Shown: positions 38,364-55,371, numbered from the stretch's first letter. The stretch is 56,718 nucleotides of DNA from an uncultured Candidatus Pelagibacter sp. (GCA_905612495.1 CAJQSF010000042.1:1-56718); one strand, 5' to 3'. The notes: generated by a model not told the origin, from the sequence alone. A program made the numbers and translations.

Positions 38364-39641
38364 ATGGTACAAGTTGCACTTACTAGTATGTTGCCATCAG
38401 GTATTAGACTTCGTAAAGGAAAGAAGTTTGATAGTTTGATTGTGCAGACTAGGAAAAAAGTAGTTGATGCAGGTGGTAAGGAACATACGATTGCTGATGC
38501 TAGAACTGTTAAGTTCAGTGTTAAAAATCCTGCAACAGATGCTGACTATACAGAAGCGTTTAAGTTAGCATTAGAAGAAGCTAAAAAAGAAAAACTTTTA
38601 GCTATTCAACATATCGCTGTTCATGGAGTAGAGAGTACAAAAGCTCCTAAACAAAAAAGTGTTGGAACAATAGGAGAGGTCTACGATTTAGTTTTTAAAT
38701 CTAGATGGCAGGGTACACCACAAGAAAAAGGTGTAAACATTTATGCCAGTGACCTGTTCGCATTTTTTCCTAAAAGTATGACAATGGAAGAACTGCACCA
38801 AAGAGTAAACTACGATAATTTTATTTTGTTCATGGAGAAAAGAATTACTGAACGAAAAATGAATAATCGTGGCACTTACAACAACTCTAGTACCAACAGA
38901 AGGTTCATGATAGTTAGAGTGTGTACGTCTTATGCTATTGAGTATGGCTTGATGCACAAAGATAAAGTGATGAACACTGACCCTAGAGAAGTTGCTAACT
39001 ATGGTTGGAAGAACCTTAAAGTTAAGGCAATTAAGAAAAAGAATGTCTTAAATAAAGAGGAAGAAAACAACATGATTGAGGAAATGAAAAAGCGTGGAGA
39101 CCATGAGTTCGCTGATGAGTTTGCTTGGAATGTTGATGTTGGTATGAGATATGAAACAGAGATGCTTAATTTTACAATTAAAGATATTAATTGGAAGAAA
39201 AAGACAATCTGTTTTTGGAGAGAAAAAACCAAAGAGTATAGTGAAAACATTCCTTTATCTAAAAGAGCATGGAGTATTGCTACAAGATATAAAGATGTTG
39301 CACTTTCAAAAACAAGTCAAAGAATGTTTGGTCATTCCAAGCATAAGATAGAAGCCTTGTTCAAAAAGTATAGAGACATATTCAGTGTTGCAGATTTTAC
39401 ACCTTATGTAACCAGACGAATGTTTGGAACTAGACTTGCTGAAAGAGGTGTTAATCCAAAAATCATAGCAAGAATGATGGGACATGCGTGTACTGAAACA
39501 GCACAAAAATACTACATTCAAACTACTGATAAGGGTATGGAACGAGCTGTTAAATTAACTGAAATATCAGATGAACAGTTTGATAGTTATTTAGATAATC
39601 AAAACAGTAACTATGGTCACAACTCTAAAGGGTTGATATAA
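38364..39641 (+). CDS. int: Tyrosine integrase
   Basis: 425 residues. The N-terminal arm-binding and core-binding domains cover about 1-220. The catalytic domain has R262 (GMRYETEML), a lysine in the beta-hairpin (REKTKEY), R351, H374 (MMGHACTET) and nucleophile Y383 (QKYY), which is 9 residues after H374 as in lambda Int. The box II histidine of H-x-x-R is replaced by tyrosine (Y348 in PYVTR). It catalyses integration at the tRNA-Leu anticodon loop. The gene ends 52 nt before the phage tRNA-Leu and about 260 nt before attR. Confidence 0.94.
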   Translation: MVQVALTSMLPSGIRLRKGKKFDSLIVQTRKKVVDAGGKEHTIADARTVKFSVKNPATDADYTEAFKLALEEAKKEKLLAIQHIAVHGVESTKAPKQKSVGTIGEVYDLVFKSRWQGTPQEKGVNIYASDLFAFFPKSMTMEELHQRVNYDNFILFMEKRITERKMNNRGTYNNSSTNRRFMIVRVCTSYAIEYGLMHKDKVMNTDPREVANYGWKNLKVKAIKKKNVLNKEEENNMIEEMKKRGDHEFADEFAWNVDVGMRYETEMLNFTIKDINWKKKTICFWREKTKEYSENIPLSKRAWSIATRYKDVALSKTSQRMFGHSKHKIEALFKKYRDIFSVADFTPYVTRRMFGTRLAERGVNPKIIARMMGHACTETAQKYYIQTTDKGMERAVKLTEISDEQFDSYLDNQNSNYGHNSKGLI

Positions 39642-39692: not shown

Positions 39693-39777
39693 GGGGGATT
39701 GGCGGAACTGGTAGACGCATACGCCTTAGGAGCGTACGACTTCGGTCATGAGAGTTCGAGTCTCTTGTCCCCTACCA
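39693..39777 (+). tRNA. Phage-encoded tRNA-Leu(UAG)
   Basis: 85 nt with encoded CCA. The acceptor GGGGGAT pairs with GTCCCCT; the D arm is GGCGGAACTGGTAGACGC; the anticodon arm TACGC-CTTAGGA-GCGTA gives anticodon TAG; a long variable arm and T arm (GAGAGTTCGAGTCTC) follow. It has the same anticodon as the host tRNA destroyed by integration but different stems, so the attB sequence is absent. It lies between int and attR, inside the prophage. Confidence 0.95.
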
Positions 39778-39912: not shown

Positions 39913-39957
39913 CCAGTATTGAAAGATGTGAAGGTTCGAGTCCTTTTTCGCCTACCA
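39913..39957 (+). pseudogene. 3' half of host tRNA-Leu(UAG)
   Basis: Contains the 3' anticodon stem (CCAG after the core A), a variable arm, the T arm with GGTTCGAGTCC, the acceptor strand TTCGCCT and ACCA. It completes the fragment at 397-436. Without the 5' half it cannot fold as a tRNA. tig begins 15 nt downstream. Confidence 0.93.
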
Positions 39958-49884: not shown

Positions 49885-49936
49885 TGGTGCCCCAGCACGG
49901 AGTCGAACCGCCGACCTATTGATTGCAAATCAATTG
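49885..49936 (-). repeat. Truncated tRNA-Thr copy 1 (3' half)
   Basis: 52 bp matching the 3' part of the intact tRNA-Thr at 53662-53737, in the same orientation: CCA end, acceptor strand, T arm, variable region and anticodon arm. Similarity stops just after the anticodon stem. There are about four mismatches, one of which changes the anticodon to TGC. A fossil att-type repeat, not a functional tRNA. Confidence 0.85.
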
Positions 49937-49989
49937 TTATTAAATAATTATTTTATATTTTATTTGTTTTTCTTTCATTGATACTGTTA

Positions 49990-50010
49990 TTACGGTAATT
50001 ATTCCCGTAA
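49990..50010 (+). terminator. Hairpin between the tRNA fragment and the TPR-oxygenase gene
   Basis: TTACGG (49990-49995) pairs with CCGTAA (50005-50010), loop TAATTATTC, followed by ATTTATATTT. A weak terminator or insulator at the left end of the cassette; it lies 21 nt before the next start codon. Confidence 0.4.
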
Positions 50011-50031
50011 ATTTATATTTAATTTTCATAA

Positions 50032-51087
50032 ATGAGTATGGCTCCAAATAACATTACCGAACAAGTAAAATTCAATGAGGAATTAATCTCGTGTCAAAAA
50101 TTTGTAAAACTTAATTCTAATAATGCAGTAGCACATTACAATTTAGGTGTCATCTTACAAAAAGTTGGGAAATTATATGAGGCTGAAATAAGTTACAAAA
50201 AAGCTACAGAAATTAAATACAATTTTACAGCAGCTTATTACAATTTAGCTAACACGCAGAGAAAACTTGAAAAATTAGACGAAGCTGAAGTTAATTATAA
50301 AAAAACATTAAAAATTAATCCTAACTTTGCTGAAGCATACTATAATTTAGGCAATACCTTTAAAGATCTCGGAAAATTAGACGAAGCTGAAATAAATTTT
50401 ATAAAAACTTTAGAACTTAAACCTGAACTAGTCGAGGCACATAAAAATTTAGATATAATATCAAAACAAAAAAAACTATTATTAAATATTTTTCCAAAAA
50501 AAAATATTCATGAAATAAAAAAACTAATTACTTTAAGGTCTGAATTTAAATTAAAACCAAATCCATTTATATATAAAAGAAGTATAGAACCAGAGCTTCT
50601 TGCTAGACTGAATGAAATTAAAGCTGGAGAAATTGATAAAAATAATTTTCAAGATGCTCGTTTTGGAAATGGCAAACATTCCGACTTCAATTTATTTGAT
50701 GACCAGTCCTCAGTCATAAAAAATGTAAAAAAAGATTTAATTAGTATTATGAGTAAAGTTATTCAATCAGATGTCTACATCAAAGAATCTTTTTTTAATA
50801 TTTTAAGATCAGGAAGTGGTGTTACACCGCATAAACACGCAAATGCTTTCGATAAAACAAGTGGATTAATTAATCAAAAATATAGTCTTACTTACTACGT
50901 GTCTATAGGTGATCAAAATTGTAGTGAACCAGGTATTTTAAAACTTCACAATCCTGAAGAAGAAATTTTACCTTCTGAAGGTACAATAGTTATCTTTGAA
51001 GCCGGTCGGATGCATTCAGCAACTTATAACGGAAACAAAAATAGGGTTATGATAGGAGTAAATTTTTATAGTTTTATAAAAATATAA
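50032..51087 (+). CDS. TPR-repeat protein with 2OG-Fe(II) oxygenase domain
   Basis: 351 residues. Residues about 20-150 hold four tetratricopeptide repeats (AVAHYNLGVILQKVGKLYEA, AAYYNLANTQRKLEKLDEAE, AEAYYNLGNTFKDLGKLDEA). Residues about 170-350 match the putative 2OG-Fe(II) oxygenase family: iron-site candidates in TPHKHANAFD and GRMHSATYNGNKNRVMIGVN. Such proteins may hydroxylate peptides or sugars; the substrate is unknown. It is the only gene between two tRNA-Thr fragments (49936 and 51123), so it forms a single-gene cassette. A decayed relative lies at 46703-46892. Confidence 0.82.
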   Translation: MSMAPNNITEQVKFNEELISCQKFVKLNSNNAVAHYNLGVILQKVGKLYEAEISYKKATEIKYNFTAAYYNLANTQRKLEKLDEAEVNYKKTLKINPNFAEAYYNLGNTFKDLGKLDEAEINFIKTLELKPELVEAHKNLDIISKQKKLLLNIFPKKNIHEIKKLITLRSEFKLKPNPFIYKRSIEPELLARLNEIKAGEIDKNNFQDARFGNGKHSDFNLFDDQSSVIKNVKKDLISIMSKVIQSDVYIKESFFNILRSGSGVTPHKHANAFDKTSGLINQKYSLTYYVSIGDQNCSEPGILKLHNPEEEILPSEGTIVIFEAGRMHSATYNGNKNRVMIGVNFYSFIKI

Positions 51088-51122
51088 TTCTAAATAATTA
51101 TTGAGATTGTTTCAAATTATGC

Positions 51123-51164
51123 TGCCCCGCACGGAGTCGAACCGCGGACCTATTGATTACAAAT
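51123..51164 (-). repeat. Truncated tRNA-Thr copy 2 (3' half)
   Basis: 42 bp nearly identical to the 3' half of tRNA-Thr (53662-53737), same orientation, with one C missing in the acceptor strand. Similarity stops at the end of the anticodon loop. Closer to the intact gene than copy 1, so probably younger. It separates the oxygenase cassette from the autotransporter cassette. Confidence 0.88.
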
Positions 51165-51297
51165 GAACAAGCTAACAAATTATCCTTTCATTAACTATTG
51201 ATATTACTTACTTCTAGACTCCCATCAAGTTGTTCAAAGAATTTTCACTACAATTTTACTTCAACATATTTTTTATTATGTTAAATATTAACTAATT

Positions 51298-53484
51298 ATG
51301 AAAAGATTAATATTTGCGTTAGTTCTAAATATCTTTGCAAATTTTAATTACGTTACAGCCGAAACTATAACGATGCCGTCAAGTTTGACAGCTGATACCA
51401 CTGCTTTTGTTTTATTATCTTCTTCAGGAACAACACCAAGTATCAGTGGATATACGGCAACAGATTTATTAGCAACTATTGTTGCATCAGCTGGAACTTT
51501 AATTGTTACAACTACCACAGGTTTGGAACAAGCTTCTGGGTATTGTGATTATACTGCAGATAATTCCAGTGAACCTACTAATTGCAAATTAGAAGCTAGT
51601 GATCATCCTGAAATAGGATTTATAGGAACTCAGGCTGAAATAAATGCTGCTCTAGCTACTTTATCTTTTAAAGGTGATGGATCTACTGGATCACCAACTG
51701 TTACACTTTCGATAACACCTGCTGGTAATAATTATAATTCAGCAAATGGTCATTATTATAAAATAGTTAACGATGATGAGATTTCTTTTACAGATTCAAT
51801 AGCAGCAGCTGAAGGATCTACATATAATGGATTATCTGGTTATCTTGTTAGTATAACTTCAGAAGCAGAAAATAATTTTTTAAATGCAAAAGTGAATCAA
51901 AATGCTTGGATTGGTGGTTCTGACAAAGCCTCATTAACTTCAAACTCTCATTCAGTAACCGAAGGAACTTGGGAATGGATATCAGGTCCTGACAACGGAA
52001 AAACTTTTTTTTGTCAAGTAGCAATTAGCGGTAAAGCTAATGCTGCAGATAGTGATTGTACAGTAGCTACTGGTTACTCTTATAATAATTGGAGAAATGC
52101 CGAACCCAACGATCACAGCAGCAATACAACTGGAGAAGAAGATTGTGCGCACATGAGAAGTGATGGAGAGTGGAATGATTTTCCATGTAATTCAACAAGT
52201 GTAGATTATTACATTATTGAATATGGAGGAACTGCAGGTGAAACAGCAACAACTTCTGGATTAACAATATTAACAATAGAATCTTTAGAAGCAAGTGGAA
52301 GTACGCACCAAGCATTTAATGACAAACAATTATCTGGAATAGTGGAAGCTCAAACTGAGAGCATGAAAAGACATATGTTTAATTCGACTAATTCTATTAT
52401 GGATCGAATGGAACAGTTCAGAAGAACCGGGGATAACAAAGGTTTACAGTTAAATGATTTTAGATTGTCACTCATTGATCAAGGAGTAGATAATCATACT
52501 CATGCCAAACTAGCAAAACATTATCTACAAAAATACTCTAAAGAAGTTTCTGATAAAAAAGGATTTAATCTTACAGAGAAAAATATAGAAAAATTTATTA
52601 CTGAACTACCACTTTCAAAATATATGAAACAAGAATTTGGTTTAAAGCCTAAAAAATGGGTTATGTGGAGTGCAGGCTCAATATCTCAAGGAGGTCTTAA
52701 CTTTAGTGTTGGTCAATTAGGTAGAAAAAATAAATCTAATGGATTTACAGTTGGCGCAGATTTAGACTTGAGTGATAATTCCTTATTAGGGTTTGCTTTA
52801 AGGGATGAAACTGAAGATGTAGAGGTTAGTACAAATGGAACTAAGTATAAATCTGATAATTCAACATTATCATTTTATAACACTTGGAAAGCTGATGATG
52901 AAAACTATTTAGATACTTTCATAGGATTTGGGAAAACAAAACAAGCAACTACAAGAATTGTTGATGTTACAAATAAGACTAAAGTTACGGGTGAATTGAA
53001 AAGTAAACAAGCTTTTGGTGCAATTAAGTATAATTTCAAAAAAAATTATAAATTAATTAATCTTAACAATTATTCCATAGTAAATTTTGGTTATAGCATG
53101 TTTGACTCTTATTCAGAAAAAGGTGACAGTAATTTAAAATTAAAATTTGATGATCGTGATCTAAAATCTTATTCTCTTTCTATAGGATCCTTAATAGAGT
53201 CTAAAATAGATTTGAAAAATTCAAAATTTATTCCATATTTAAGAATTGATATAACGGAAGATCTGACTGAAGCTTCTAATTTAAAAGCAAATTATATCTC
53301 AAGCCCCTCTAATCAATATAGCAAAAGTATTAGTAAACATTTCTCAACTATTATTCGGGCAGAGACTGGATTTGATTGGAATTTTAGAAATGATTGGAAT
53401 ATATCATCCACTTTAGAAAGAATTGATAAAAATGGTTTAGGACATCAAAATAGTTTAAAATTTAATGCAAATAAATCTTTTTAG
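51298..53484 (+). CDS. Autotransporter with a C-type lectin domain
   Basis: 728 residues. A signal peptide (about 1-21, cut after YVTA) is followed by a beta-rich part, then a C-type lectin-like domain (about 150-315): GYLVSITSEAENNFL, WIGGSD, EPND and GEWNDFPCN, with paired cysteines. EPN plus WND are the calcium and sugar-binding motifs of C-type lectins, mannose type. The C-terminal about 280 residues form an outer-membrane autotransporter barrel (WVMWSAGSISQGGLNFSVGQ onward) ending in phenylalanine. It would display a sugar-binding protein on the cell surface. It is the only gene between tRNA-Thr copy 2 and the intact tRNA-Thr. Confidence 0.85.
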   Translation: MKRLIFALVLNIFANFNYVTAETITMPSSLTADTTAFVLLSSSGTTPSISGYTATDLLATIVASAGTLIVTTTTGLEQASGYCDYTADNSSEPTNCKLEASDHPEIGFIGTQAEINAALATLSFKGDGSTGSPTVTLSITPAGNNYNSANGHYYKIVNDDEISFTDSIAAAEGSTYNGLSGYLVSITSEAENNFLNAKVNQNAWIGGSDKASLTSNSHSVTEGTWEWISGPDNGKTFFCQVAISGKANAADSDCTVATGYSYNNWRNAEPNDHSSNTTGEEDCAHMRSDGEWNDFPCNSTSVDYYIIEYGGTAGETATTSGLTILTIESLEASGSTHQAFNDKQLSGIVEAQTESMKRHMFNSTNSIMDRMEQFRRTGDNKGLQLNDFRLSLIDQGVDNHTHAKLAKHYLQKYSKEVSDKKGFNLTEKNIEKFITELPLSKYMKQEFGLKPKKWVMWSAGSISQGGLNFSVGQLGRKNKSNGFTVGADLDLSDNSLLGFALRDETEDVEVSTNGTKYKSDNSTLSFYNTWKADDENYLDTFIGFGKTKQATTRIVDVTNKTKVTGELKSKQAFGAIKYNFKKNYKLINLNNYSIVNFGYSMFDSYSEKGDSNLKLKFDDRDLKSYSLSIGSLIESKIDLKNSKFIPYLRIDITEDLTEASNLKANYISSPSNQYSKSISKHFSTIIRAETGFDWNFRNDWNISSTLERIDKNGLGHQNSLKFNANKSF

Positions 53485-53661
53485 ATAAAAAACAATCTAA
53501 CTTTCTTTGTGATAAACCACCCAAACATTGGTTATTTAAAAGTAACTACAAAATAACTAAAACGAGTTCTACTTTCTTCCTTTGTATAGTCTTTGTTCTA
53601 CAATTTTTTTTTATAGATTTTTTTCTTAAGATTCAAAAAGTGAAATAAGTAAAGGATTGTG

Positions 53662-53737
53662 TGGTGCCCCCGCACGGAGTCGAACCGCGGACCTATTGAT
53701 TACAAATCAATTGCTCTACCAGCTGAGCTACAAGGGC
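53662..53737 (-). tRNA. tRNA-Thr(UGU)
   Basis: 76 nt with encoded CCA. Read on the minus strand: acceptor GCCCTTG with CGGGGGC, D arm GCTCAGCTGGTAGAGC, anticodon arm ATTGA-TTTGTAA-TCAAT with anticodon TGT, T arm GCGGTTCGACTCCGT. It is intact and is the reference for the two truncated copies upstream. It marks the right end of the variable island. Confidence 0.96.
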
Positions 53738-53998
53738 ATTAAGTTTCTTGATCAGTTTTTAGTTCAATAAGTAATAATAATCAATCCCAAATAAGAAACA
53801 GTTCTAAACGAAAGTAGAAATGTAGTTATGAAAAGTTGCTCAATGTTCACTGGTATTGGAGTTCCCATAGAGTTCCCAACGGCCAAAAAGAACATCATAG
53901 AGTTTCGTAGAGTTCTCGTTCCCGATTAAATATTTGTTAAGATGTGTATTTTCTATTAAACATTGACTATAACTGTTACAAAAATATAATTTCTTATT
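53738..53998 (+). other. Non-coding gap with phased AGAGTT repeats
   Basis: No convincing gene. GGAGTT/AGAGTT starts at 53858, 53869, 53899 and 53909: two pairs spaced 10-11 bp and 30 bp apart, so all lie on one face of the helix. The first two continue as GTTCCCA. The pattern resembles repeated protein-binding sites beside the tRNA-Thr integration point or ahead of the next operon. Confidence 0.45.
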
Positions 53999-54682
53999 AT
54001 GTTAAAAGAATTCAATATTGATCAGGCACCATTATCACTAAACTCTCTGTTAATAAATTTAGCAGTAGGAGTTTTAGTTTCTATTCTAATAAAAATTCAC
54101 TACAGAAGATTTGGTTCAACAATTACAAATAGAGAAGAATTTAGTAATATCTTTCCATTTATAGTTTTAACAACTGTTTTAATAATTTCTGTTGTAAAGT
54201 CTTCGTTAGCTCTATCTTTGGGACTTGTTGGAGCACTTTCAATTGTTAGATTTAGAACCCCAATAAAAGAGCCTGAAGAATTAGCATATCTATTTATATG
54301 TATAGCTACTGGGTTGGGACTTGGTGCCAATCAAACAGTAGTTACTCTAGTAGCTGTGTTATTTATATTAATAGCTGTTTCAGTTACTAAATTTAAATCT
54401 AGAAATAAAATAGAAAAAAATATGTACTTAACAATAGAACTTTCAGAAATCAAAAATATAGAGAAAGACGAAATTTCAAAAAAAATAAACATCATTCTCT
54501 CTGAAGAATTAAAAAATTTTGATTTAAGACAACTTGATGTAAAAGATAATTTTTTTCAATCAACTTATATTATTGCTATAGATAATGTATCCATGCTAGA
54601 GAAGACTATAGGAAAACTTAATAAATCTTTTCCTAAAATATCTATTAATTATATAGATCAAAATCAAGTGCCAAGCATCTAA
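53999..54682 (+). CDS. DUF4956 membrane protein
   Basis: 227 residues. Four membrane segments are apparent (about 15-35, 50-70, 70-90, 100-125). The signature SLALSLGLVGALSIVRFRTP followed by IKEPEELAYLFICIATGLGLG is that of the DUF4956 family. The C-terminal 100 residues are soluble. DUF4956 genes are often paired with VTC-domain genes, as here, where the stop overlaps the next start (TAATG at 54680-54684). It may be a membrane partner or channel for the VTC enzyme. Confidence 0.88.
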   Translation: MLKEFNIDQAPLSLNSLLINLAVGVLVSILIKIHYRRFGSTITNREEFSNIFPFIVLTTVLIISVVKSSLALSLGLVGALSIVRFRTPIKEPEELAYLFICIATGLGLGANQTVVTLVAVLFILIAVSVTKFKSRNKIEKNMYLTIELSEIKNIEKDEISKKINIILSEELKNFDLRQLDVKDNFFQSTYIIAIDNVSMLEKTIGKLNKSFPKISINYIDQNQVPSI

Positions 54683-55371
54683 TGATTGCGATAAACCAAG
54701 GTGAAAGATGTGAAGTAAAATTTGCATCATACCATGTTAATTATCCAGTTATTATAAGTTGGTTAAAATCAAATAATTATAATTTTAAAAAAGAATATAG
54801 AGATAGAATAGTAAATAACCTCTACTTTGACACAAATAATTTAGATGCCTACAAAGATAATATTTACGGTCACTCTTCTAGAATTAAAACAAGATTTAGA
54901 TGGTTTGGTAATTTTAATGAAAATAATTTTGGCAACTTAGAGTTAAAGTTTAAAAGAAATATATATGGATGGAAAGAAAGGTATAAAATTGAAAAATTAA
55001 GATTAGAAAACAATAAAAATTTGAATACAATAAAGAGCACAATTAGTAAACATTTACCTTTTAGGACAAAAATTTTTTTTGAGAAAAATAATATTCCTCA
55101 AATAGTTAATCAATACGAAAGAGAGTACTTTATAAGTAGTGACAAGAAATACAGAATAACGATTGATAGAAATATGAAAGTATTTAACCAGAGGAATAGT
55201 GATAAAATTAACTTAAATAAAGAGGCTATGATACAAAATCATATTATTTTAGAGGTAAAATTTGAAAGATCCTCTTATAATAAAATAGAAAATCTTTTAC
55301 ATAATATACCATTTAGAGCTAGTAGAAATTCAAAATATATAAATTCCATTAAAGCTGTGATGGGGATTTAA
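54682..55371 (+). CDS. VTC-domain protein (polyphosphate polymerase-like)
   Basis: 229 residues. It matches the VTC catalytic domain: ERCEVKFAS at the start, NNLYFDTNNLDAY, the basic strand RIKTRFRWFG, LELKFKRNIYGWKERYKI, and ILEVKFERSS near the end. These alternating K/R and E positions line the tunnel that binds nucleotide triphosphate and the polyphosphate chain in yeast Vtc4. Bacterial relatives with DUF4956 and CotH neighbours may act in surface phosphorylation instead of phosphate storage. Stop and next start are adjacent (TAAATG). Confidence 0.86.
   Translation: MIAINQGERCEVKFASYHVNYPVIISWLKSNNYNFKKEYRDRIVNNLYFDTNNLDAYKDNIYGHSSRIKTRFRWFGNFNENNFGNLELKFKRNIYGWKERYKIEKLRLENNKNLNTIKSTISKHLPFRTKIFFEKNNIPQIVNQYEREYFISSDKKYRITIDRNMKVFNQRNSDKINLNKEAMIQNHIILEVKFERSSYNKIENLLHNIPFRASRNSKYINSIKAVMGI

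Follow-up and report, generated by a model that had tools for sequence, protein, structure and literature searches.

The window analysed here, the whole stretch of 56,718 nucleotides from an uncultured Candidatus Pelagibacter sp., carries one intact tRNA-Thr(TGT) gene, identified by ARAGORN on the minus strand at 53662-53737. When this tRNA-Thr was used as BLASTN query against the genome of the window, two displaced 3′ fragments were located on the same strand, one at 51125-51167 (43 nt, query positions 7-49, 98% identity, E 2.8e-15) and an older one at 49885-49936 (52 nt, query positions 1-52, 94%, E 1.9e-17). Both keep the orientation of the tRNA-Thr and lie 3′ of it, and a chance origin of the two matches is excluded. 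These searches confirm the intact gene and the two same-orientation 3′ copies of the preliminary description, with the second fragment starting at about 51125 rather than at 51123. The fragments and the tRNA-Thr bound two intervals, each of which contains, as had been stated, exactly one gene (50032-51087 and 51298-53484). No tyrosine recombinase was found among the genes or Pfam matches of either interval, and the earlier statement that no integrase is present holds for both intervals but not for the window, where a T7-like prophage at tRNA-Leu encodes one (38364-39641). This pelagiphage prophage (397-39692) lies between a tRNA-Leu 5′ fragment (397-435, 79%) and the intact tRNA-Leu gene (39693-39777); its terminase is 74-76% identical to those of HTVC011P/HTVC025P-type phages and its integrase 36% identical to that of HTVC025P. 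Some 160 bp downstream from the intact tRNA-Leu, its 3′ end is partly repeated in a second, 24-nt copy (39934-39957, 83% identical). The prophage integrase was judged an unlikely mover of the tRNA-Thr elements, since it adjoins tRNA-Leu and resembles the integrases of T7-like pelagiphages.

The interval next to the tRNA-Thr, element 2 (51125-53661, plus strand), has the younger fragment as its left boundary and is a clear member of a class of cargo-only cassettes. Its gene (51298-53484, plus strand) encodes a C-type lectin autotransporter of 728 aa (Pfam Autotransporter, 7.7e-26; Lectin_C, 4.2e-9). The preliminary description had called the cargo of both intervals surface proteins, which is clearly right for this gene but not for that of the other interval. 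Both ends of element 2 belong to an end type that we call class B. At the left end (51168-51263, plus strand), which contains diverged arm repeats, the class B leader query matches 51180-51263 at 90% (E 8.9e-28) and the end profile matches 51171-51256 with E 1e-17, the window being among the 10 training sequences of that profile; at the right end (53541-53661, plus strand) the profile match covers 53541-53657 with E 8e-20, again with the window in the training set. A 2.6-kb block running from the fragment of element 2 through the tRNA inclusive is 96% identical to a block in another genome (G141:C8), and the lectin autotransporters of the two are 98.5% identical. Homology with G141 begins and ends at the att boundaries and the flanks are unrelated, while a core-gene stretch of only 518 nt is 85% identical between the two genomes. 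In a third genome (G154), 88% identical to the window over a 4.4-kb core-gene comparison, the ends of element 2 (left 83%, right 96%) enclose unrelated cargo that includes an MmeI-type restriction enzyme; the 96% stretch spans 53564-53740. Because the exact block shared with G141 stands above core identity and the same ends recur in G154, element 2 is a discrete transferred unit, and the segment between the second fragment and the tRNA is, as judged from sequence, genuinely mobile.

Element 1 (49885-51124, plus strand), delimited by the older fragment on its left and by the second fragment, is less well preserved. Its gene (50032-51087, plus strand) encodes a TPR protein of 351 aa in which TPR repeats were found, together with a sub-threshold match to 2OG-Fe(II) oxygenases; the TPR part is 37.5% identical to the cargo of an element at another locus (L145). 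The left fragment is good, the gene terminates about 37 bp short of the next fragment, neither end is recognised by the end profiles, the right end being unrecognisable, and the match between left and right arms is at background. Element 1 is probably an older, decayed cassette.

The locus was compared with others of the genus. A search of 201 same-genus genomes revealed that 3′ fragments of tRNA-Thr are common, and 80 loci were fetched which, together with the window, made a survey of 81. Thirty-eight of the 81 carry fragments, and they contain 53 elements, which measure 0.4-7.7 kb. A visible fragment had been the reason for including seven of the 80; excluding these and the window, the rate is 30/73. 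The fragment matches nearly always end at query positions 46-55, corresponding to the anticodon stem-loop. In several cassette-free genomes one conserved gene, which reads as an NAD kinase gene, directly adjoins the tRNA-Thr, and comparison of an empty locus (L056) with a filled one (L055) defines a precise insertion junction. The empty site and the exact block in G141 bear out the proposal that cargo-only elements insert serially at tRNA-Thr with the newest adjoining the tRNA, and the different cargo seen at the fragments of these SAR11 loci is what that proposal had anticipated. Two of its generalisations fail: elements carry 1-13 ORFs, not a single gene, and cargo is not restricted to surface proteins, since it includes restriction enzymes, pilins, a protease and many unknowns.

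Elements of unrelated cargo share conserved sequences after the fragments and ahead of the next fragment or the tRNA. We named end classes by the left end, with broad classes A and B, of which A is heterogeneous; class C comprises mainly integrase-bearing or relic elements. A class A leader query gave about 35 strong matches in the 201 genomes, and about 31 of them, when positions were compared by eye, lie on a contig with tRNA-Thr, on its 3′ side and in tRNA orientation. When the exact class A pattern was searched in one genome per species over 84,980 species, only Pelagibacteraceae or Pelagibacterales matched. Within the ends lie arms, paired direct repeats of about 11 bp, which in a given element agree between left and right: the mean best 20-nt match is 16.3, compared with 14.2 for shuffled pairings, and this mean was reached in 0 of 5000 permutations, overall as well as within class A and within class B. 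Such covariation could partly reflect common ancestry of the ends. In element 2 the left-right arm score is at background, its own arms having diverged, and an exact-repeat search of the window did not recover them.

Cargo is diverse. The 154 ORFs fall into 103 clusters, and 136 of the ORFs are directed towards the tRNA. In 41 elements a plus-strand first ORF starts 110-185 nt from the start of the core, and in 29 of these the start lies at 137-144, preceded by a TAAA(A/G)T-like hexamer and a T run. This arrangement suggests that the left arm may hold a promoter producing near-leaderless transcripts; a promoter scan of the window gave no excess over shuffled sequence. Pfam matches among the cargo include DpnI, SRA-HNH, MrcB_N-HNH, MrcB_N-NOV_C, T5orf172, MmeI and Mrr-helicase, as well as pilin-like proteins, a trypsin-like protease and a glucose/sorbosone dehydrogenase, and PADLOC defence-protein models match several of the 77 cargo proteins scanned; many cargo proteins have no Pfam match. 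Thirty-three cargo ORFs, up to a dozen per element, form one family (L113, L047, L142 and others), a scanned representative of which has an N-terminal methylation (pilin-like) motif.

Which enzymes could move these elements? Integrases that use the same site do exist. On a phage contig (L096) the tRNA-Thr core and a left arm are followed by a tyrosine integrase, and a SAR11 genome (G247) has, in order, the NAD kinase gene, a fragment, an arm and an integrase of the same family. In another genome (G372) a 78-residue remnant of this type of integrase follows the fragment; next come genes that are peroxiredoxin-like and methyltransferase-like by reading of their sequences, and then a right end of class A, followed by the tRNA. 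The first cargo gene of class A elements starts at about 142 nt and the integrase gene of L096 and G247 at about 150 nt, a similar position. Kinship of L096 and G247 with class A rests on this layout and on the G372 relic, because the class A end profiles match neither of them below E 1. For class B, a 7.7-kb satellite-like element (L074, in genome G038) encodes an Arm-DNA-bind_3 integrase and a DUF5906 protein, and its right end weakly resembles class B (profile E 0.0033). Partner integrases are rare; A1-family integrases were present in 22 of 399 genomes and mostly lie at tRNAs other than tRNA-Thr, and no matching integrase was found in the genome of the window, which is 63% complete. A search of IMG/VR for relatives of the L096 integrase returned L096 itself only. 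Viral contigs with the tRNA-Thr core were considered as further attP candidates, and nearly all proved to contain full or near-full tRNA genes, only L096 being attP-like; among the matches listed, named phages with the core mostly have annotated tRNA-Thr genes. In SAR11 genomes, related integrases also adjoin other tRNA genes (L175-L192), read by eye as those for Gly, Met, Asn and other amino acids; similar arms of repeats often lie upstream of where the integrase starts. Of the earlier idea that the integrase is supplied elsewhere, the existence of integrases that use this site is borne out, while their supply in trans is what we infer.

We consider it likely that the tRNA-Thr of this SAR11 genome serves as an insertion hot spot for small att cassettes which are non-autonomous and rely on the tyrosine integrases of phages or satellites, acting in trans, for their movement. 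A cassette would exist as a circle carrying a phage-type attP and its cargo, with an attP core formed by the tRNA-Thr 3′ half and anticodon loop and with arms of paired ~11 bp repeats to either side of it. The tyrosine integrase of a phage or satellite that uses tRNA-Thr would bind these arms and recombine the core with the tRNA. The inserted element would supply a new tRNA 3′ half and displace the old one as a fragment. What the sequences themselves show is that insertion is precise, that ends are conserved and arms covary, that the same ends enclose varied cargo, and that an exact unit was transferred; the circle, the integrase acting in trans, the way between cells and the left-arm promoter are deduced from this pattern. 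Repetition of insertion next to the tRNA would therefore give the order fragment-cargo-fragment-cargo-tRNA, and the 3′ half of the intact gene at 53662-53737, the integration target, would have been contributed by the newest element. More tentatively, and with the chances somewhat against it, SAR11 may possess an integron-like cassette system without its own recombinase, in which an attP and a gene near the position of a phage integrase gene, expressed from a left-arm promoter by near-leaderless transcription, are moved by integrases of infecting phages or satellites, many cassettes bearing phage-defence genes.

The main rival, which we regard as unlikely, is that the elements are dead, CIME-like leftovers: deletion would have removed the integrase from phages, satellites or islands that had inserted at tRNA-Thr, so that only att sites remain, with some of the cargo, which is immobile as a cassette. 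Decay of larger elements was seen in at least one case, that of G372, where cargo and then a right end of class A come after the integrase remnant, and the decayed state of element 1 fits the same reading, as do the 15 of 31 Dehalococcoides ssrA islands that lack integration modules and have been proposed as such elements (PMC3146451). Against it, element 2 passed, as a precise unit that has no integrase, between genomes whose flanks are unrelated, though homologous recombination at the tRNA, if it transferred a larger tract, could also give that pattern; a fixed first-ORF start and conserved ends around unrelated cargo are, moreover, hard to obtain through independent deletions. A less probable account still has the cargo spreading mainly by homologous recombination between strains via the tRNA and flanking genes, the fragments being relics of rare old insertions. 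SAR11 populations are recombinogenic, and the block shared with G141 takes in the tRNA itself, but its homology stops at the att boundaries and identical end types enclose different cargo. Simple tandem duplication of the tRNA region, which the shared orientation and one-sided position of the fragments might bring to mind, retains practically no likelihood, because the intervals contain unrelated genes between shared ends, and also because conserved non-tRNA ends come after the fragments and nearly all fragment matches end in the anticodon stem-loop.

Insertions may occur on both sides of the gene. Some genomes have 5′ tRNA-Thr fragments on the other side (L035, 17430-17472; G154:C2:217310-217350). 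The window, too, has 11-bp repeats on the 5′ side of the tRNA-Thr, ahead of genes for DUF4956 and VTC proteins (53999-55371). At 53859-53914, two copies of GAGTTCCCA lie 11 bp apart, together with related copies, and are candidate arm repeats; tentatively, a third element that includes those genes may begin with them, the contig ending at 56718.

SAR11 are among the most abundant bacterial groups and have streamlined genomes, which lends interest to the way in which they gain genes. Because the site is defined and the ends can be recognised, mobile genes can be listed in existing single-cell genomes, circle junctions can be searched for in reads, and the idea that phage integrases carry host genes along can be put to the test. 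The presence of restriction and other defence genes in cassettes would tie this route of gene gain to phage resistance.

Serial islands at tRNA or tmRNA genes, some of them integrase-free, are already known. According to the sections of the two reports considered here, additive flexible genomic islands at tRNA genes occur in streamlined aquatic bacteria: those of Actinomarinales consist of cassettes at tRNAs with tell-tale repeats (PMC7771536), and fGI-2 of Methylopumilus has repeated tRNA-Lys ends (PMC10872708). Like such additive islands, the insertions described here have a partial tRNA repeat at their far end, variable cargo at a fixed locus and an empty site; set against those sections, arm pairs, a fixed cargo position and a partner integrase are described only here. 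The SAR11 genomics paper PMC7318151 makes no mention of integrase or cassette. CIMEs (PMC5704250) and the Dehalococcoides ssrA islands, whose recombinases are serine recombinases (PMC3146451), likewise keep att sites without an integrase and accrete in tandem at one RNA gene, and they have been read as decayed ICEs or IMEs or as moving with their neighbours. Element 2 resembles a CIME in having both ends (candidate att sites), one cargo gene and no integration or transfer genes. Of an origin by ICE/IME decay we saw one truncated phage-type integrase relic, that of G372, and no conjugative ancestor; unlike in those systems, the candidate partners here are phage or satellite tyrosine recombinases and the ends are conserved across many unrelated cargos. 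The comparison with Prochlorococcus tycheposons drawn in the preliminary description holds for cargo adjoining a tRNA in a streamlined marine genome, but tycheposons, as characterised in PMC10872708, measure 4-200 kb and carry a tyrosine recombinase, whereas the elements of the window measure 1.2 and 2.5 kb and carry none. With tRNA-integrating phages and satellites (L096, G247, L074) the cassettes share a core in the tRNA anticodon region and arm repeats, which there stand beside the integrase. Unlike them, cassettes lack integrase, replication and virion genes; each element of the window has one non-phage gene, whereas L096 and L074 have their own integrase with replication or virion genes. 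Integron cassette arrays are likewise series of units that hold one or a few genes and lack a recombinase of their own. In contrast to theirs, the boundary here is formed by a core from the anticodon region of a tRNA together with phage-type arms, and a promoter may be part of the cassette itself. As far as we have checked, three features are new: arm pairs that are conserved, a cargo position that is fixed in class A, and candidate partner integrases.
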